Shown here: positions 13,497-23,693 of the stretch, in pieces
Position numbering within the stretch: position 1 is the stretch's first letter
How the letters are laid out: every line of letters starts with the position of its first letter
NCBI GenBank assembly: GCA_947624865.1
Contig: CANQMH010000004.1
Location: forward strand, 1 to 50,429
Reading direction: 5' to 3'
Length of the DNA stretch: 50,429 bases
Origin: an uncultured Clostridia bacterium
GTDB lineage: Bacteria > Bacillota > Clostridia > Oscillospirales > Acutalibacteraceae
Notes under the pieces: model-generated
What the model saw: only the letters and a program-made list of their open reading frames with translations
Told to the model about the DNA's origin: nothing
Database searches by the model: none
Position numbers and translations under genes: made by a program

Positions 13497-13523
13497 AAAG
13501 AGGGCATATAAATGCCCTCTTTT
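13497..13523. terminator. Bidirectional terminator between scfB and feoB
   Basis: AAAGAGGGCAT-ATAA-ATGCCCTCTTTT. Confidence 0.85.
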
Positions 13524-15432
13524 AAAATATACGCATAATGTTATCTGTAATAATACACAGAATAATGCCCATTATCGTAGGCAGAGCCATTGAAATTAAA
13601 GTCCATTTCAAACTGCCTGTTTCTTTTTTTATCGTTAAACAAGTTGTTGAGCAGGGAAAATGCATTATACACATAATCATTGTGCAAACGGCAGTTACCG
13701 CAGTCCAGCCGTTTGCAGTAAAAAGCTGTAAAAGCTGTTCATAACTTGTATATTCAACAAGCGTACCGCTTGCCATATACGACATAATTATAATCGGTAT
13801 GACAGTTTCGTTTGCAGGAAATCCGAGTATGAATGCCATTACAATGACGCCGTCAAGTCCGATAAACTGACCAAAAGGATTTAAAAACTCTGTGCAGTAC
13901 GCAAGAATAGAAGTGTTTCCGATATAAATATTTGCCAACAGCCAAATAACCGCTCCCGCAGGCGCAGCTACTATAACAGCTCTTCCCAAAACGAACAGAG
14001 TTCTGTCAAGCAGCGAACGAATTATTGTTTTTATAATCTGCGGCTTTCTGTAGGGAGGCAGTTCAAGTGCAAAACCCGACGCTTCTCCCTTTGCAATTGT
14101 CAGCGACAAAAGCTTTGACACACCTAAAGTCACCAAAACGCAAAGCACAATTATTCCCAGCAGTATTGCGGCAACAGTAAGTGAAGAAAAGATGCCGAAT
14201 GTACTTCCTGCAAAAAACATCATTATTATTGCAATTAAAATAGGAAATCTTCCGTTGCACGGCATAAAATTATTTGTAAGTATTGCAATGAGGCGTTCCT
14301 GCGGAGATTCTATTATTCTGCATCCTGTTACTCCGCAGGCGTTACAGCCTATTCCCATTGCCATAGTAAGGCTTTGTTTACCGTGTGCTCCGCACCCTGA
14401 AAAGAACTTATCAAGATTAAATGCAATTCTCGGCAGATAGCCTGAATCCTCAATAATTGAAAACAACGGGAAGAAAATTGCCATTGGCGGAAGCATTACC
14501 GATACAACCCAAGTCAGAGTCGTATATACTCCGTCAATTAAAAGTCCTGTTATAAAACTCGGTACACTTAGCAGCTCAAATAAATTATATAAATTTGATT
14601 TTATGAAATCAAACAGAATACTCAGCCATTCACTCGGATAATTTGCTCCAACGGATGTAATCCAGAAAAGCATGCCAAACAGCAACAGCATTATCGGAAT
14701 TCCTGTTGTCTTTGATGTAAGTATTTTATCAATTTTCTTGACTCTCTCGTTAAGTGCCATACAGTTATACGTTACGCAATCACTGCATATTTTTCTGCTT
14801 TTATCAGCAAGTGTTTCAATATTTTTTTTATGATGTTCATTGTCCAGAACATCAACGCCTTCAAAATTTCTTGATACTCTAAAACAGTTTTTCTTGCCCG
14901 TACACACATCATATACAACACTCTTTAATTCTTTCAGTCCTTTTCTTTTTGATGCACAGGTGCAGACAACAGGTATTCCGAGATTTAGAGAAAGTTCATC
15001 TTTATCAATGCAAATACCGTTTTTCTCTGCTTCATCGCATAAATTAAGGCACAGTACGGCTTTTTTTTGAATTGACAATACCTGCAAAGCAAATGAGAGA
15101 TTTCTTTCTATGACATTTGAGTCTATTACTATTATTACGCAGTCAGTTTTATTATTTGCAAGAAATCCCTTTGCAACTGTCTCTTCTTTTGAAAACGACA
15201 GCATTGAGTATGTTCCGGGAAGGTCTGTAATCAAAAAACTTTTATCTCTTATTTTAGCTTTGCCCGAAGAACATTCAACAGTTTTTCCCGTCCAGTTTCC
15301 AGTATGCTGTTTTAAGCCTGTCAGGGCGTTGAATATCGTACTTTTTCCAACATTAGGATTACCTGCCAAAGCTATATTAAAATCTGTATCTAAGTTGATT
15401 TTATTACTTGTGACCGAATTTCTTGCAAACAA
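13522..15432 (-). CDS. feoB: Ferrous iron transporter B (TTG start)
   Basis: NIALAGNPNVGKSTIFNALTGLKQHTGNWTGKTV, DLPGTYSMLSFSKEE, SGCGAHGK, GCNACGVTGCRIIES. GGGAGG SD upstream of TTG. Confidence 0.93.
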   Translation of the reverse strand: MFARNSVTSNKINLDTDFNIALAGNPNVGKSTIFNALTGLKQHTGNWTGKTVECSSGKAKIRDKSFLITDLPGTYSMLSFSKEETVAKGFLANNKTDCVIIVIDSNVIERNLSFALQVLSIQKKAVLCLNLCDEAEKNGICIDKDELSLNLGIPVVCTCASKRKGLKELKSVVYDVCTGKKNCFRVSRNFEGVDVLDNEHHKKNIETLADKSRKICSDCVTYNCMALNERVKKIDKILTSKTTGIPIMLLLFGMLFWITSVGANYPSEWLSILFDFIKSNLYNLFELLSVPSFITGLLIDGVYTTLTWVVSVMLPPMAIFFPLFSIIEDSGYLPRIAFNLDKFFSGCGAHGKQSLTMAMGIGCNACGVTGCRIIESPQERLIAILTNNFMPCNGRFPILIAIIMMFFAGSTFGIFSSLTVAAILLGIIVLCVLVTLGVSKLLSLTIAKGEASGFALELPPYRKPQIIKTIIRSLLDRTLFVLGRAVIVAAPAGAVIWLLANIYIGNTSILAYCTEFLNPFGQFIGLDGVIVMAFILGFPANETVIPIIIMSYMASGTLVEYTSYEQLLQLFTANGWTAVTAVCTMIMCIMHFPCSTTCLTIKKETGSLKWTLISMALPTIMGIILCIITDNIMRIF

Positions 15433-15452
15433 TAAAAAAACCTCCCGATTAT

Positions 15453-15707
15453 TTATATAGGAGTAACGGTAATTTTTTGACAGTCCTTATTTCTTAATGC
15501 TACAACTGCATTTTTTATCAGATAGGCGGTAGGATCGCCAAACGGACTTCTGTATATGGGAGTAATTATTGAATCTTTTATAATGCCCAGATCAAAAATC
15601 CTGTTAATTAGATTTTCTTTGCAATCGACCGAATTTACAATTGCGCTTTTGTCAAGAGGTAAATTATTAAGCGTGCATTTTTCTTCCATCATCTTCACCG
15701 ATTTCAA
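15453..15707 (-). CDS. feoA: Ferrous iron transport protein A
   Basis: 84 aa; LINRIFDLGIIKDSIITPIYRSPFGDPTAYLIKNAVVALR; directly upstream of feoB. Confidence 0.85.
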   Translation of the reverse strand: MKSVKMMEEKCTLNNLPLDKSAIVNSVDCKENLINRIFDLGIIKDSIITPIYRSPFGDPTAYLIKNAVVALRNKDCQKITVTPI

Positions 15708-15814: not shown

Positions 15815-16005
15815 CAGAAACTGCGGTTCGAACAGATATTTCTTAGTAGGTAATTGGGAATTCGGTCTGAATCCGAAACAACCGTCATTACTGTGTTTGG
15901 CAAATGCCATAAGTCAGATTACTCCCGCTTTTTCTTGGATTTTGCATTCTTGGACGAAGAAGAAGTGCTGCCGATTATAACTGTTGCTTTGATTTATTTC
16001 ATTGC
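15815..16005 (+). ncRNA. Cobalamin riboswitch-like leader
   Basis: GGGAATTCGGTCTGAATCCGAAACAACCGTCATTACTGT...GGCAAATGCC..AAGTCAGATTAC matches the B12-box order GGGAA-GGT..AA.CC-ACTGT-AGTCAGAT.AC of cobalamin riboswitches. Boundaries approximate. Confidence 0.85.
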
Positions 16006-16052: not shown

Positions 16053-16082
16053 CTTTCAAAAATTTTATTTACGGAGGTTATT

Positions 16083-17783
16083 ATGAAAAAAACAATTAAA
16101 AAATTTTTGTCAATGACAATTGCCGTTGCAATTGTCATCGGAGTAATGTCAACAGCAACGGTTGCAAGTGCAAGTGAAACGGACAGTGTACGTGTAATAG
16201 TACGCAATGACGTTTACTCTGTTGAGGACGGCGCAGCGTGGGACGGCGTGATAGTTGATGAGTGGGTTGATATTGACGAAAATTCATCTATGATGTCTGC
16301 TGTAGTTGATGCACTTGATAATCACGGCTATACTCAGAAAGGTGCAGAAAACAACTATATTGAAGAGATAAACGGTCTTGCTGCATTTGATTCAAGTTCA
16401 TCCAGCGGTTGGATGGGAACTCTTAACGACTGGTTTACTAATGAAGGATTCGGAGCATTCACTGTTGCCTCCGGCAAGCTTGAAGACGATGATGAAATTT
16501 GCATATTGTACACTGATATGTTCGGAGAAGATATTGGTGGTTCATGGAACAACAATGAAACAACTCTTAAAGATTTAAGTTTCAGCAGTGGTACATTGTC
16601 AGCAGATTTTGAGTCATCAGTCACTGAATACACATTAACACTTGACAGCAATACAACAAGCGTTATGGTAACTCCGACTGCAACAAACAAAAATTATCAA
16701 GTAAGAACATATAAAAATGAATATACTCCCGAAGTTGAGGATACGGAGTATAAAAGAAATGACTCAATTGAAGTTGCCGACGGAGATAAAATCATTATAG
16801 GCGTTGGTGACTCAAATTGGCCATCAATGAATCAAACAGACGGCGGTACGGTTTACACGATCAATATTAAAAAGCAAGATGCTGAGGAAAAAGGTAATAT
16901 ACGTGTAATAGTCCGCAATGACGTTTACTCTGTTGAGGACGGTGCAGCGTGGGACGGCGTGCTTATTGATGAGTGGGTTGATATTGACGAAAATTCATCT
17001 ATGATGTCTGCTGTAGTTGATGCACTTGATAATCACGGTTATACTCAGAGCGGTGCAGAAAACAGCTATATTGAAGAGATAAACGGTCTTGCTTCGTTTG
17101 ATTCAACTCCTTCCAGCGGTTGGACAGGCACTATTAACGACTGGTTTACGAATGAAGCATATAGTGAATTTACTGTTGCATCGGGCAAGCTTGAAGACGG
17201 TGATGAAATTTGTATTATGTACACCAATACGTACGGAGAAGACGTTGGCAGTCTATGGGACAACAATGAAACAACTCTTAAGGATTTAAGCTTCAGCAAT
17301 GGTAAATTATCATCAGATTTTGAGTCATCAGTTACTGAATACACATTAACACTTGACAGCAATACAACAAGCGTTATGGTAACTCCAACTGCAACAAACA
17401 AAAATTATCAGGTAAGAACTTACAAGAATGAATATACTCCTGATGTTGAGAATACGGAGTATAAAAGAAATGACTCAATTGAAGTTGCCGACGGAGATAA
17501 AATCATTATAGGCGTTGGTGACTCAAATTGGCCATCAATGAATCAAACAGACGGCGGTACAGTTTACACAATTAATGTTAAGGTAGAAAGTGAAGCATTG
17601 CTTGGTGATGTTAATTATGACAACTATATTGATGTAAAGGATGCAACATCAATTCAAAAATTCATTGTTGGATTGGAAACATTTACAGATGAGCAAATTT
17701 TGAATGCAGACTATAATAAAGACGGACTTGCATCTGTTTTAGATGCAACTGCAATTCAAAAATATATAGTCGGAATAGAGTGA
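16083..17783 (+). CDS. Secreted protein: (DUF4430 + cadherin-like beta-sandwich) x2 + dockerin
   Basis: Signal peptide MKKTIKKFLSMTIAVAIVIGVMSTATVASAS; SGWMGTLNDWFTNEGFG and SGWTGTINDWFTNEAYS DUF4430 motifs; LKDLSFSSGTLSADFESSVTEYTLTL cadherin-like; GDVNYDNYIDVKDATSIQKFIVG...DYNKDGLASVLDATAIQKYIVGIE dockerin. Start revised to 16083. Confidence 0.85.
   Translation: MKKTIKKFLSMTIAVAIVIGVMSTATVASASETDSVRVIVRNDVYSVEDGAAWDGVIVDEWVDIDENSSMMSAVVDALDNHGYTQKGAENNYIEEINGLAAFDSSSSSGWMGTLNDWFTNEGFGAFTVASGKLEDDDEICILYTDMFGEDIGGSWNNNETTLKDLSFSSGTLSADFESSVTEYTLTLDSNTTSVMVTPTATNKNYQVRTYKNEYTPEVEDTEYKRNDSIEVADGDKIIIGVGDSNWPSMNQTDGGTVYTINIKKQDAEEKGNIRVIVRNDVYSVEDGAAWDGVLIDEWVDIDENSSMMSAVVDALDNHGYTQSGAENSYIEEINGLASFDSTPSSGWTGTINDWFTNEAYSEFTVASGKLEDGDEICIMYTNTYGEDVGSLWDNNETTLKDLSFSNGKLSSDFESSVTEYTLTLDSNTTSVMVTPTATNKNYQVRTYKNEYTPDVENTEYKRNDSIEVADGDKIIIGVGDSNWPSMNQTDGGTVYTINVKVESEALLGDVNYDNYIDVKDATSIQKFIVGLETFTDEQILNADYNKDGLASVLDATAIQKYIVGIE
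16190..17580 (+). repeat. Tandem intragenic duplication, about 680-bp units with 711-bp period
   Basis: CGTGTAATAGT.CGCAATGACGTTTACTCTGTTGAGGACGG at 16191 and 16902; homology extends to GTTTACAC.AT.AAT.TTAA at about 16869 and 17580. Confidence 0.9.
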
Positions 17784-17787
17784 TAAT

Positions 17788-18039
17788 ATGGAAGATGATA
17801 AAATTCTGCTTGCAATAAAATTACTGTCTGATATGGCAGAAAATCTCGGCAGGAATCCTAAGCGAACTGATTTTGACAGTGAAACAGCCTGTTTTATTAA
17901 GCAAAAATTAGGACCTTGGCCGCGTGCACTTGAAAAAGCAGGCTTAAAAAGAACACCTGAAATTTCCGCAAAAGAAAAATCCAAACAAAAAAGGGAAAGA
18001 ATTAGAAAAAAATATAAAAATTTTAATAAAGAGGTATAA
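17788..18039 (+). CDS. Small protein with a homing-endonuclease-associated (HNH_repeat-like) motif
   Basis: LGRNPKRTDFDS...IKQKLGPWPRALEKAGLKRTPE; very basic C-terminus; lies between two dockerin genes with short gaps. Confidence 0.65.
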   Translation: MEDDKILLAIKLLSDMAENLGRNPKRTDFDSETACFIKQKLGPWPRALEKAGLKRTPEISAKEKSKQKRERIRKKYKNFNKEV

Positions 18040-18041
18040 TT

Positions 18042-19217
18042 ATGAGCAAAACAATAAAAAGAATAACCGCGCTTTCATTAATACTGATTATGAGCATATG
18101 CAGTATTATATCAGTTAATGCAGCAACTGATGTTGAGCTGCTTTCAAAGTATGATGAAACAACAAATTACTTATCATCACTTGAAACTCCGTCAGTAAGT
18201 TCAATCGGCGGCGAGTGGATGATTATCGGACTTGCAAGAACCGAAAAAATCAGTAATGATTTTGTAAACGGATACTATCAAAACGTAGTAAACTATGTTA
18301 CTTCAAATGGTTCGGCAAAACTTCACAGAGCAAAATCCACTGAAAATTCAAGAGTAATTATTGCTCTTACGTCAATCGGCAAAGACGTCACAGATGTGGC
18401 AGGATATAATTTGCTTGAACCTCTTGCAGACTTTAATTACTTAGAAAAACAGGGAATAAACGGTTCTATTTGGGCTCTTATTGCTTTTGATTCTCTTAAT
18501 TATGAAATTCCTGTTGACAACAATGCCTCTGTTCAGACAACAAGAGAAGCGCTTATTAAATATATTCTTGACTCGCAGATAGAAAACGGCGGCTGGTCAT
18601 TAACAGGTTTTAATACAGACCCTGACATGACAGGTATGGCTGTTCAGGCACTTGCACCGTACTATGACTCAAACGATGCTGTAAAATCAGCTGTTGATGA
18701 AGCGCTTGCCGCTTTATCTGATATTCAAAATGAAAACGGAGGTTTTGCTTCTTGGGGCAGTGTGAATGCCGAAAGCTGTGCGCAGGTTATAACTGCGCTT
18801 ACAAGTCTTGGCATAAATCCACAGACAGACGAGCGTTTTATTAAAAACGGCAACACATTAATTGACGCTCTTATGTCATTCGGCGTTGAGAACGGCTTCG
18901 CTCATATTGCAAACAGCGACTACAACCAGATGGCGACTGAACAAGCATACTATTCACTTGTTTCATATTACAGACTTGTAGATAATAAAACTTCGCTTTA
19001 TGATATGAGTGATTTACTTAATACTCCAAACGAACCAAAAGACATTAACGGTGACGGCGTTGTAAATATTGTTGACTGTACTTGTATTCAGAATTACCTT
19101 GTTGATTTGGAAGAATTCAGCGACAAGCAGATTACGGATGCAGATTACAACGGTGACGGAATAGTAGACATTATTGACGCTACATCAATTCAGAAATATT
19201 TGGTAGGCATTATTTAA
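18042..19217 (+). CDS. Secreted alpha/alpha-barrel (prenyltransferase/squalene-cyclase-like repeat) protein with dockerin
   Basis: Signal peptide; repeats YILDSQIENGGWSLTGFNTDPDMTGMAVQALAPY and ALSDIQNENGGFASWGSVNAESCAQVITALTSLG; dockerin DINGDGVVNIVDCTCIQNYLVD...DYNGDGIVDIIDATSIQKYLVGII. Confidence 0.85.
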   Translation: MSKTIKRITALSLILIMSICSIISVNAATDVELLSKYDETTNYLSSLETPSVSSIGGEWMIIGLARTEKISNDFVNGYYQNVVNYVTSNGSAKLHRAKSTENSRVIIALTSIGKDVTDVAGYNLLEPLADFNYLEKQGINGSIWALIAFDSLNYEIPVDNNASVQTTREALIKYILDSQIENGGWSLTGFNTDPDMTGMAVQALAPYYDSNDAVKSAVDEALAALSDIQNENGGFASWGSVNAESCAQVITALTSLGINPQTDERFIKNGNTLIDALMSFGVENGFAHIANSDYNQMATEQAYYSLVSYYRLVDNKTSLYDMSDLLNTPNEPKDINGDGVVNIVDCTCIQNYLVDLEEFSDKQITDADYNGDGIVDIIDATSIQKYLVGII

Positions 19218-19221
19218 AATT

Positions 19222-20145
19222 ATGAAAGATTTATTAAAAAAACATAAATTAGTTTTAATCTCCGCTGTTGTTGCTGTTGCTGTTCTTGTTATTGCATTTT
19301 TTGCGGGGGGAACATTATCTGATAATACGAAAACAGTTGTTTCCTCATCAGCTTCAACTTCGGATACAGAAAATTACACTGAGGCCGAAACTGTTTCCGA
19401 AACGGTTGCAGAAACAACTTCTTCTGATAATAAAACTGAGAAAAAAGAACAAAAAAATAAAGATAAAAAAAAGACTGAGTCCAAAACAGATTCTTCTCAG
19501 ACAAAAAATAGCACAAATGAGGTTGTAAAAAAGGAAAAGCAAAGCTCAAATACAATCGTATCAGGCTCTGATAAATCGTCAGCTAAATCCAATAATATTT
19601 CTTCCCGTTTAAATCAATCATCAAGCAGCATGGGAAATAAAGGACAAAAAGATAAGTATCTGACTGACCCGATACCCGAGGGAAAGCCAAAGCCTGTAGA
19701 GCCTCAGGAGCAGGAAACTAAAAACAATATAATCACCTGCACTTTTTCAATTTCGTGCAGTACAATATTAGACAATATTGAGGATCTTGACCCTCCTGAT
19801 AAAATCGAACTTGTACCAGACGACGGATGGATATTAAAACCTACTAAGGTTGAATTTAAAGATGGAGAATCGGTTTTTGACGTTTTGCAGCGTGTATGTA
19901 AAGATAATAACATACATATGGAATTTTCTTTTACACCGATTTATAACTCCGCTTATATTGAAGGAATAAACAATCTTTATGAATTTGACTGCGGAAGTAA
20001 TTCTGGCTGGATGTACAGTGTAAATGATTGGTATCCAAATTACGGTTGTTCCCGTTATGTATTGCAGGACGGGGATGTAGTCGAATGGAAATACACCTGC
20101 GATCTCGGATATGATATTGGCGGTAGCAATGCAATAGGAAATTAA
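19222..20145 (+). CDS. Membrane-anchored DUF4430 (transcobalamin C-terminal-like) protein
   Basis: N-terminal TM anchor, about 120-aa low-complexity Ser/Lys/Thr linker, then NIITCTFSISCSTILDN...IEGINNLYEFDCGSNSGWMYSVNDWYPNYGCSRYVLQDGDVVEWKYTCDLGYDIGGS. Confidence 0.85.
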   Translation: MKDLLKKHKLVLISAVVAVAVLVIAFFAGGTLSDNTKTVVSSSASTSDTENYTEAETVSETVAETTSSDNKTEKKEQKNKDKKKTESKTDSSQTKNSTNEVVKKEKQSSNTIVSGSDKSSAKSNNISSRLNQSSSSMGNKGQKDKYLTDPIPEGKPKPVEPQEQETKNNIITCTFSISCSTILDNIEDLDPPDKIELVPDDGWILKPTKVEFKDGESVFDVLQRVCKDNNIHMEFSFTPIYNSAYIEGINNLYEFDCGSNSGWMYSVNDWYPNYGCSRYVLQDGDVVEWKYTCDLGYDIGGSNAIGN

Positions 20146-20154
20146 GGACTTGTT

Positions 20155-21045
20155 ATGAAAGACACATTTTCACAAATGCACCCAATTGTAAATTTTATAT
20201 ATTTTGTATTTGTAATAGCATTTTCAATGTTTTTGATGAATCCTGTCTGCCTTGCAATTTCTCTTTTATGCGCTCTGATAAATGCGGTATATTTAAACGG
20301 TTATAAAGCAGTAAAGCTGAGTTTAAAATATCTGCTGCCGATGATTATTTTAATTATGATAATTAATCCTGTTTTTAACCACGAAGGAGTAACAATTATT
20401 ACATATTTTTCATGGGGTAATCCGCTTACCCTTGAATCGATTGTATATGGAATTGCAGCAGCAGTATTATTGTCGTCAGTAGTGCTGTGGTTTTCGTGCT
20501 TCAATGCCGTTATAACTTCAGATAAATTTATCTATCTGTTCGGCAGAATTATACCGTCTTTAAGTCTTATATTGTCAATGTCACTACGATTTATCCCAAA
20601 ATTTACAGCTCATTTCAGAGAAGTACGCAATACACAAAGATGTATAGGCAGAGATATTTCTGACGGTTCAATTTTTAAAAGAATTAAAAACGGCGTAAAA
20701 CTGCTGTCAATTATGATTTCATGGGCTATGGAAAATGCAATTGAAACTGCTGATTCTATGAAAAGCAGGGGATACGGATTAAAAGGGAGAACTGCGTTTT
20801 CAATTTACAGATTTGACAAACGTGACGGCATTGTTCTTAGTTTAATACTGGCCGCAGGATCGTTAATCGGATTATCGATTTTTTTTGAGGTGGTAAAATT
20901 CAGATATTTTCCGTCAATTAAAGGCGATTTATTTAATTTTTCAATGGCTTTGGTTTACATTTTATATGCGTTATTAATGCTTATACCGTTTATATTAAAT
21001 ATTAAGGAGGAACTGAAATGGAAGCGTTTAAGGTCATCAATCTGA
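20155..21045 (+). CDS. ecfT: ECF transporter T component
   Basis: Polytopic; SLRFIPKFTAHFREVRNTQRCIGRD...AIETADSMKSRGYGLKGRTAF (EcfT A-R-G-like coupling motifs). Confidence 0.88.
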   Translation: MKDTFSQMHPIVNFIYFVFVIAFSMFLMNPVCLAISLLCALINAVYLNGYKAVKLSLKYLLPMIILIMIINPVFNHEGVTIITYFSWGNPLTLESIVYGIAAAVLLSSVVLWFSCFNAVITSDKFIYLFGRIIPSLSLILSMSLRFIPKFTAHFREVRNTQRCIGRDISDGSIFKRIKNGVKLLSIMISWAMENAIETADSMKSRGYGLKGRTAFSIYRFDKRDGIVLSLILAAGSLIGLSIFFEVVKFRYFPSIKGDLFNFSMALVYILYALLMLIPFILNIKEELKWKRLRSSI

Positions 21046-23693
21046 CTTTCAGATACCCCGAAACGGGAATAGATGTGCTGAAAAACATATCCTTTTCGGT
21101 AAAACGCGGAGAATTTATAACACTCTGCGGACCTTCGGGATGCGGTAAAAGCACTCTTTTACGTCAGCTTAAACCTGTTCTTGCGCCTCACGGCGTAAAG
21201 TCAGGAAAAATTTTGTTTTTAGGTAAAGATATAAACGAACTCTCTTTACGCGAGCAAAGTCAGAAAATCGGATATGTGCTGCAATCTCCCGACAACCAGA
21301 TAGTAACCGATAAGGTCTGGCACGAGCTTGCTTTTGGTCTTGAAAGTCTTGGATATGATAACGAAACAATCCGCAGAAGAGTTGCAGAAACTGCAAGCTT
21401 TTTCGGAATTCACAACTGGTTTGATAAAAGTATCACAGAACTTTCGGGAGGACAAAAGCAAATTCTTAATCTTGCTTCCGTTATGGCTATGCAACCCGAA
21501 GTGCTTATTCTGGATGAACCTACAAGCCAACTTGATCCGATTGCAGCCGCTGATTTTCTCGCCTGCATTTCAAAAATCAATCGTGAACTCGGAACAACAA
21601 TCATAATTACAGAGCATAGACTTGATGAAGTGCTTCCTCAAAGCAGCCGTGTTCTTGTAATTGAAAACGGTGCAATATTGTCATATGATACACCTGTGAA
21701 TACGGGAAAAAATCTTAAACGCTGCGGCAGTAAATCCTTTTTGTCACTTCCTGCACCAATGAGGATTTGGGAATCCGTATGCAGTGATGAAACAAATTGT
21801 CCGATAACTGCCGCTCAGGGCAGAGAATGGCTTGAAAATTATTCTAAAAGCCATAAGCTCTATGAGCTTTATCCCGAAAAGATTCCTGAACACAGTGACA
21901 AAGTTGCTGTACAGCTAAAAAATGTCTGGTTCAGGTATGAAAAAAATTCTCCCGATATCGTTAAGGGACTTTCTCTTACAGCTTATCAAGGAGAATTTGT
22001 TGCAGTTCTCGGCGGAAACGGTACAGGAAAAACTACTATGTTATCACTTATCAGCGGTATTAACAAGCCGTATAGGGGAGTAGTCAAACTTACTGATTAT
22101 TATAACAATGAAAGTGATATAAAAACAGCTGTACTTCCGCAAAATCCTCAAAATTTATTTGTAAAGAAAACTGTTCTTGAGGATTTAAAGGAGGTATTTG
22201 ACGGCAGAAAAATTGATAAAGATGAAAAAAGCAGACGTTTAAATGATGTAGTATCGCTGTGTCGGCTTGAAAAGTTTCTTAACAGCCACCCCTATGATTT
22301 ATCGGGAGGCGAGCAACAGCGCGCCGCACTTGCAAAAGTGTTGCTTTTGCGGCCTGAAATTTTGCTTCTTGATGAGCCTACAAAGGGACTTGACGCAGAA
22401 TTTAAAATTGTATTTGCAGATATAATAAAATCACTCACAGACACAGGCGTAACAGTAATTATGGTTAGTCACGATATAGAATTTTGTGCCCGATTTGCTC
22501 ATCGATGTGTTATGCTGTTTAACGGAGAGATTGTATCTAAGGGTACTCCAAGAGAATTTTTTGCCTCCAACAGCTTTTATGTTACTTCTTCAAACAGAAT
22601 GTCTAAAAATGTTATTGAGAATGCCGTAACTGCGGAAGACGTAATCTATTGCTGTACGGGAAAAACAAGTAATGATGATAGTTCGACCGTTAAAACAAAC
22701 CTTTATGATAACAGGCTGTATGAAGAAAAACAGAATATTATTAAAGACAAAAATAAAGAACTGCCTAAATGGAAAAGAGTTCTCGGTGCATTTTCAGCAT
22801 TGCTTTTGATTTTCAGCATTTTTATAAACCTTGATTATTTAAGTTTTTTAAATTCAAAGACTTTGCCGCTGTGGTGTAATTTTATTTTAGTAGCAATACC
22901 TGTTATTTTGCTGATGATTTCTTTTGGTTCAAAATCCAAGCGTTCAATTGACGAAATAATGATAGATAAATCAAACCGCAAAATACCAAAAAGAACCATT
23001 GCCGCGGCTATAATAATATTATTCACCGTGCCGCTTACGATTTTTGTGGGTGTTACATATCTTCAGGACCAAAAATATCTTTTTATTTCACTTCTTGTAA
23101 TGATTGAGTGTATGCTTCCTTTCTTTATGATTTTTGAGGGCAAAAAACCGCAGGCGAGAGAACTGATAATAATCGCTGTACTCTGTGCAATTGCCGTATC
23201 AAGCAGAGTAATATTTTCTATGCTGCCGCAGTTTAAGCCGGTAATTGCACTTGTTATAATTTCAGGAGTTGCCTTCGGCGGCGAAACAGGTTTTCTTGTT
23301 GGCGCAGTAACAATGCTTGTATCAAATGTTTTATTCAGCCAGGGAATTTGGACTCCTTGGCAGATGTTTGCAGCCGGCATTATAGGATTTATTTCAGGGA
23401 TACTGTTCCAAAAGGGACTTTTAAGCCGCAACAGAGCCGCTCTTTGTACGTTTGGCTTTTTTATTACGATAATAGTATATGGCGGAATTATGAATTTTTC
23501 CTCTGCCGTTATGGCGCACGCAACTATAAATTTTGAAACTTTGCTTACGTTTTATCAGACCGGTTTTCCTATGGATATTGTACACGGTTTGTCAACTTTG
23601 GTATTTCTATACTTTGCCGCTGAACCGATGCTTGAAAAGCTTGACAGAGTTAAAGTAAAATACGGATTAGTTAATGTAAAAGGGACTGCATAA
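21018..23693 (+). CDS. ECF transporter fusion: two ABC ATPase domains plus a C-terminal membrane S component
   Basis: Two Walker A (GPSGCGKST, GGNGTGKTT), two signature (LSGGQK, LSGGEQQR) and two Walker B motifs; C-terminal multi-TM region ELIIIAVLCAIAVSSRVIFSMLPQFKPVIALVIISGVAFGGETGFLVGAVTMLVSN typical of ECF S components. Confidence 0.88.
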   Translation: MEAFKVINLTFRYPETGIDVLKNISFSVKRGEFITLCGPSGCGKSTLLRQLKPVLAPHGVKSGKILFLGKDINELSLREQSQKIGYVLQSPDNQIVTDKVWHELAFGLESLGYDNETIRRRVAETASFFGIHNWFDKSITELSGGQKQILNLASVMAMQPEVLILDEPTSQLDPIAAADFLACISKINRELGTTIIITEHRLDEVLPQSSRVLVIENGAILSYDTPVNTGKNLKRCGSKSFLSLPAPMRIWESVCSDETNCPITAAQGREWLENYSKSHKLYELYPEKIPEHSDKVAVQLKNVWFRYEKNSPDIVKGLSLTAYQGEFVAVLGGNGTGKTTMLSLISGINKPYRGVVKLTDYYNNESDIKTAVLPQNPQNLFVKKTVLEDLKEVFDGRKIDKDEKSRRLNDVVSLCRLEKFLNSHPYDLSGGEQQRAALAKVLLLRPEILLLDEPTKGLDAEFKIVFADIIKSLTDTGVTVIMVSHDIEFCARFAHRCVMLFNGEIVSKGTPREFFASNSFYVTSSNRMSKNVIENAVTAEDVIYCCTGKTSNDDSSTVKTNLYDNRLYEEKQNIIKDKNKELPKWKRVLGAFSALLLIFSIFINLDYLSFLNSKTLPLWCNFILVAIPVILLMISFGSKSKRSIDEIMIDKSNRKIPKRTIAAAIIILFTVPLTIFVGVTYLQDQKYLFISLLVMIECMLPFFMIFEGKKPQARELIIIAVLCAIAVSSRVIFSMLPQFKPVIALVIISGVAFGGETGFLVGAVTMLVSNVLFSQGIWTPWQMFAAGIIGFISGILFQKGLLSRNRAALCTFGFFITIIVYGGIMNFSSAVMAHATINFETLLTFYQTGFPMDIVHGLSTLVFLYFAAEPMLEKLDRVKVKYGLVNVKGTA

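Follow-up and report, generated by a model that had tools for sequence, protein, structure and literature searches.

An uncultured member of the Acutalibacteraceae probably (we put it at about 60%) uses dockerins in place of a wall anchor, so that the subunits with which an ECF system captures corrinoid are displayed together on a scaffold of amylosome type. Dockerins are usually taken as marks of polysaccharide-degrading complexes; here they terminate two proteins, P1 and P3, of a vitamin importer with a cobalamin-riboswitch-like leader, in the clade of the keystone starch degrader R. bromii. Computation identified the dockerins, cohesins, operon, leader and gene fusions set out below.

Cohesin binding, corrinoid binding and hand-over we infer to run as follows. 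In this R. bromii-like amylosome maker, P1 and P3 would act as subunits that capture corrinoid outside the cell for an ECF uptake operon under cobalamin-riboswitch control. Their dockerins would fix them to the cell surface, as a sortase-type tail does for the barrel protein of many relatives, and should insert in a calcium-dependent way into the cohesins of a scaffoldin anchored in the wall, for example a Sca5 homologue, bringing the barrel half (P3) and the DUF4430 half (P1) to one place. Captured corrinoid would then pass to the membrane-tethered P4 and on to the ECF transporter.

A transporter operon with two dockerin-bearing proteins

The window (the whole 50,429-nucleotide stretch of DNA that was analysed) carries a compact plus-strand operon, running from P1 to a fused EcfA-EcfA'-S protein:

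15835–15973, plus strand: cobalamin-riboswitch-like leader (RF01482 AdoCbl, 30.8 bits, E 6e-4, under the gathering score of 50)
16080–17783, plus strand: P1, with a signal peptide-like start, two DUF4430 plus cadherin-like units and a dockerin
17601–17768, plus strand: dockerin of P1 (PF00404, residues 508–563; 32.7 bits by hmmscan, E 8e-8; 36.9 bits in the genome search)
17788–18039, plus strand: small HNH_repeat protein, encoded between P1 and P3 (PF18780, E 7e-10)
18042–19217, plus strand: P3, with a signal peptide-like start, an alpha/alpha toroid barrel and a dockerin
19038–19202, plus strand: dockerin of P3 (PF00404, residues 333–387; 46.3 bits by hmmscan, E 5e-12; 49.6 bits in the genome search)
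19222–20145, plus strand: P4, an N-terminal membrane anchor and DUF4430, without a dockerin (PF14478, E 1e-20)
20155–21045, plus strand: EcfT (PF02361, E 6e-11)
21018–23693, plus strand: EcfA-EcfA' ATPases fused to an S component (PF00005 twice; PF07155, E 5e-9; TIGR04520 over its cut-off)

All the parts of an ECF transporter (EcfT, two EcfA ATPases and an S component) are thus encoded together. The DUF4430–cadherin-like (CAD) unit of P1 is duplicated in tandem and in frame, the copies being 88% identical in amino acids and 91% in nucleotides; this pair (16190–17600) corresponds to one copy in orthologues of the clade. Of the DUF4430 proteins in these operons, the membrane-anchored and dockerin-free P4 is conserved best, with a mean column identity of 72% across 34 loci, versus 47% for the P1-type domain. 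In 20 of the 81 corrinoid-uptake loci a homologue of the HNH_repeat protein (PF18780) is encoded near the barrel, usually immediately upstream of it, and this protein is perhaps a conserved small regulator of such operons. Adjoining the operon on the opposite strand are genes that by sequence are FeoB-like and FeoA-like iron-transport genes (13522–15707).

The earlier note, made from the sequence by itself, had placed two-repeat dockerins at the C termini of both secreted proteins. Since both modules exceed the Pfam Dockerin_1 cut-off (PF00404, 22.9 bits), that observation is confirmed; the strings it quoted occur in the translations, and both proteins have signal-peptide-like starts. Each dockerin has the sequence features of type I, with two tandem 12-residue calcium loops of the D-x-N-x-D type and a helix motif after each, and the loops are intact in both repeats of both modules. 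Dockerin pairs within a locus are more alike than pairs across loci (0.48 versus 0.40), a difference confounded by phylogeny but compatible with a common target.

Cohesins, scaffoldins and dockerin clients of the genome

The genome of the window (1.9 Mb, 99.8% complete) gives 34 dockerin matches in a PF00404 search. Three cohesin matches were found genome-wide with the Pfam model and six with a profile built from the genome's own cohesins, all on other contigs (C45 and C3), which agrees with the earlier note's remark that the window holds no cohesin. That note had proposed a genome-wide search for cohesins and scaffoldins and would have dropped its model for a genome lacking any cohesin; about six cohesins, among them those of a Sca5 homologue, were found. 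Its link from dockerins to amylosomes likewise holds, the host genome being of amylosome type and encoding cohesins that include a two-cohesin scaffoldin.

The Sca5 homologue (1107 aa, contig C45) carries a pair of X25 modules, a pair of cohesins and a sortase-like tail. It matches solved R. bromii domains, namely Sca5 X25-2 (7rpy, E 1.5e-56), Coh5 (7uvg, E 2.5e-26) and 7urp (E 2.9e-21); by position, the part matched by 7urp probably corresponds to the second cohesin of Sca5. Direct hmmscan of the genome's cohesin proteins gave no cohesin match, though the genome search had put two over the cut-off, and for the Sca5 homologue the matches to solved cohesins settle this discrepancy. A second scaffoldin-type gene on C45, cut by the contig end, carries at least two more cohesins. 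Two single-cohesin proteins are called from Pfam scores and from a profile built partly from themselves. The C45 cluster (L053, 1–7938) groups the Sca5 homologue, the cut multi-cohesin gene and a single-cohesin membrane protein.

Dockerin clients of starch type comprise GH13 amylases, pullulanases and CBM26 proteins. Others are papain- and subtilisin-type peptidases, a carbon-nitrogen hydrolase, a D-Ala-D-Ala carboxypeptidase/GH25 protein and LRR proteins, so that on its gene content the genome would encode an amylosome of the R. bromii type, many of whose clients are something other than starch enzymes. On contig C43 (L039, 1–12000), two near-identical LRR-dockerin proteins of 921 and 922 aa stand in tandem, diverging towards the C terminus.

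The R. bromii amylosome (Sca1-5, Amy4/9/10/12/16, Sas20) shares with this genome type I dockerins, GH13 and CBM26 dockerin enzymes and a Sca5-type scaffoldin that has a pair of cohesins and ends in a sortase-like tail. Its clients are starch enzymes and binders, whereas P1 and P3 are vitamin-uptake proteins of a transporter operon. Published counts put the dockerin proteins of R. bromii at 27, some of which have been assayed (PMC5814915, PMC9112005). If co-display is confirmed, amylosomes would serve generally as platforms for surface display, and existing cohesin-dockerin ELISA tools could be turned to B12 capture in R. bromii. A full-text literature search, with Ze et al. 2015 outside its coverage, returned no match for transcobalamin with dockerin; that work reportedly holds R. 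bromii dockerin binding data.

The predicted ligand and the barrel fold

The barrel was found in 37 of 150 genomes of the family, where the genes commonly run barrel, DUF4430, EcfT, EcfA, S. Of 30 cobalamin riboswitches in the barrel-bearing relatives, 23 precede a barrel gene on its own strand at a distance of no more than 7 kb. The leader in the window does not reach Rfam gathering with RF00174 or RF01482. At the corresponding position in R. bromii YE282, RF00174 scores 36.5 bits, above its gathering score of 31.5, and three other loci fall just below. The 14 orthologous leaders align at 67% mean identity and include four pairs changed on both sides, the marks of a conserved, covarying element.

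The genome also encodes a MetH-like B12-binding protein, and a genome search found no FecCD/BtuC-type permease. R. bromii reportedly has B12-dependent methionine synthesis and is unable to make B12 (PMC6231298). Given the riboswitch leaders, the MetH-like protein, the missing permease and the B12 need of R. bromii, a corrinoid is well supported as the predicted ligand. The earlier note's assignment of P1 and P3 to vitamin capture gains from the same leaders, from the ECF operon and from a compatible fold.

That fold was examined with a high-confidence AlphaFold2 model of the P3 barrel. Foldseek returned alpha/alpha toroids (prenyltransferases, terpene cyclases and transcobalamin) at 10–17% identity, the first two scoring equal to or above transcobalamin; the fused R. 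bromii chain described below gave a similar list. The modelled barrel thus fits transcobalamin without being specific to it, and neither the barrel nor the DUF4430 profile has a sequence match to transcobalamin structures in the PDB. The link to transcobalamin rests on the Pfam DUF4430 match, read with PMC4350170 and PMC1796856, and on the fold. An isoprenoid enzyme, suggested by matches of the barrel profile to terpene cyclases, was rejected on account of secretion, of the transporter operon and of a D-P-D-M-T motif instead of DxDD. An alpha-macroglobulin TED was also rejected, its Foldseek matches lying at an rmsd of ~14–26 Å and its Pfam matches being two weak ones.

Animal transcobalamin, intrinsic factor and haptocorrin also pair an alpha/alpha barrel with a DUF4430-type beta domain, and transcobalamin is one among several toroids that the modelled barrel matches in fold. 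Transcobalamin and intrinsic factor are one chain, barrel then beta domain, whereas the window has separate chains and R. bromii a fusion in reverse order. Bacterial operons combining toroid and transcobalamin-like SLBB (beta-grasp) proteins with CbiQ-/CbiO-like genes were predicted to scavenge B12 by Burroughs, Balaji, Iyer and Aravind in 2007 (PMC1796856). The window holds the same combination of toroid, transcobalamin-type beta domains and CbiQ-/CbiO-like genes and, as in those operons, the toroid and beta-domain proteins are secreted and a second paralogous SLBB protein is present.

Among other importers, ECF-CbrT of Lactobacillus delbrueckii (PMC5997447) is also an ECF-type transporter proposed for cobalamin, a likeness of type; in the window one chain joins the S component to the ATPases, and the operon also encodes extracellular capture proteins. 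Surface corrinoid capture is known in gut bacteria from the B12-binding lipoproteins (PMC6143338) and DUF4465 proteins (PMC13398666) of Bacteroides. Those are anchored as lipoproteins, whereas the window proteins bear dockerins, and Pfam hmmscan found no DUF4465 match among the proteins scanned.

Proposed exchangeable anchors, fused and split halves

Many relatives have a barrel protein with an xPxTG/TM wall anchor or a bare TM tail at its C terminus, as classified by a rough pattern. The R. bromii-like clade has a dockerin in that position, as do, apparently independently, L105, L170, L172, L208 and L098; in L104 a dockerin accompanies a partial barrel. In our reading the dockerin is an interchangeable means of surface attachment that would replace the wall anchor on the barrel protein. 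A 96-row tree supports a single origin of the dockerin clade (SH-aLRT 96), and a tree with a small outgroup does not resolve it. Among relatives there is no clear relation between cohesin presence and a dockerin on the barrel; because many cohesin-bearing genomes keep another anchor there, the swap is not obligatory.

Several members described in 2007 carry a Gram-positive wall anchor, which is missing from the window proteins, where a dockerin sits at that position. Since not every member originally described had this anchor, the operon remains a member of the toroid/SLBB class. Burroughs et al. proposed surface complexes for these proteins and described the wall anchor motif; the term dockerin is absent from their text (PMC1796856), whereas dockerins end both capture proteins here. 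B12 scavenging by such systems was therefore already predicted, and we found no report of dockerin display. The portions of the dockerin and cobalamin literature covered do not make the link between dockerin display and B12 capture.

R. bromii ATCC 27255, 5AMG and YE282, with nine further assemblies (MAGs), encode DUF4430, CAD, barrel and dockerin in one chain with one dockerin. Where both genes are separate, each half has its own dockerin in 14 of 14 loci (the window and 13 others, counting L138, whose first gene is broken into two frames), so the dockerin is kept on both halves. At least three changes between fused and split forms are required on the barrel tree. Such fusions are evidence, of the gene-fusion kind, that the two halves would act together. 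In the window, L138, L190 and L198 the two halves flank the HNH_repeat gene, which elsewhere stands upstream of barrel genes, a placement hinting that the split order may be older than the fusion in this clade.

The earlier note had the two halves assembling on a shared cohesin. Their functional linkage is borne out by the single chain of R. bromii, but in known type I pairs a single cohesin takes a single dockerin, so sharing one cohesin is unlikely as worded and both halves would have to meet on a scaffoldin that offers two or more cohesins; such scaffoldins are encoded in this genome. P4 has no place in the earlier note's model. A stricter version, which we regard as unlikely, has P1 and P3 docking side by side on one scaffoldin and closing on a single corrinoid, a transcobalamin-like clamp held by the scaffold with no peptide bond. 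The natural fusion, the multi-cohesin scaffoldins and, subject to phylogeny, the likeness of dockerins within a locus are in keeping with it. Set against these, the fusion order DUF4430-CAD-barrel is the reverse of transcobalamin, the highly conserved P4 could supply a DUF4430 lid at the membrane without any scaffold, and some barrel-dockerin loci lack an adjoining dockerin-bearing DUF4430 gene (L105, and L175, where the barrel-dockerin gene stands alone). Bolder, and a little harder to credit, is a cohesin-dockerin scaffold serving as the hinge of a vitamin receptor, with the halves next to each other on the cohesins of a Sca5-type scaffoldin and closing around one corrinoid, as a calcium-switchable modular transcobalamin in species where covalent fusion is absent. 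The natural fused and split versions offer a ready test of scaffolding in place of a peptide bond.

Other readings dispense with surface display or with the corrinoid. The dockerins might be calcium-binding tails that bind no cohesin of their own organism: dockerin-like modules occur outside cellulosomes, and in L144, L146, L147 and L159 the barrel dockerin has a degenerate second calcium loop. The intact loops in the window, the cohesins of the genome and the retention of a dockerin on both halves whenever the genes separate make this improbable. It is still less probable that the dockerins target scaffoldins free of the cell, or complexes bound to starch, and that the proteins capture corrinoid at a distance from the cell. 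R. bromii has been modelled with both cell-free and cell-bound amylosomes (PMC5814915), but capture far from the importer would not benefit the cell, and relatives anchor the same protein to wall or membrane. We give least credence to a non-corrinoid ligand such as another vitamin; the barrel is nearest to terpene cyclases and prenyltransferases in profile and fold, and the S domain matches a broad riboflavin-transporter model, but cobalamin riboswitches lie upstream in relatives and within the clade, and the proteins are secreted, encoded next to an importer and carry D-P-D-M-T in place of DxDD. Co-display on a scaffoldin, the reading we prefer, has counterweights of its own in the sub-gathering score of the window leader, in an anchor swap that is not obligatory, and in the abundant EDTA-released proteins of R. 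bromii L2-63, none recognisable as the fused capture protein, from cells that were not B12-starved (PMC9112005, Table 1).

Further fusions occur among the relatives. In genome G008, a chain encoded behind a cobalamin riboswitch (L098, 6241–8937, minus strand) joins DUF4430, barrel, a cohesin-like domain and a dockerin, on weak Pfam matches; from this domain content it could in principle link to itself. L110, L111, L115, L116, L117 and L120 fuse barrel, two TM stretches and DUF4430 in the transcobalamin order. Five of these six lie directly upstream of a complete EcfT-EcfA-S set, and at L115 only EcfT was found.
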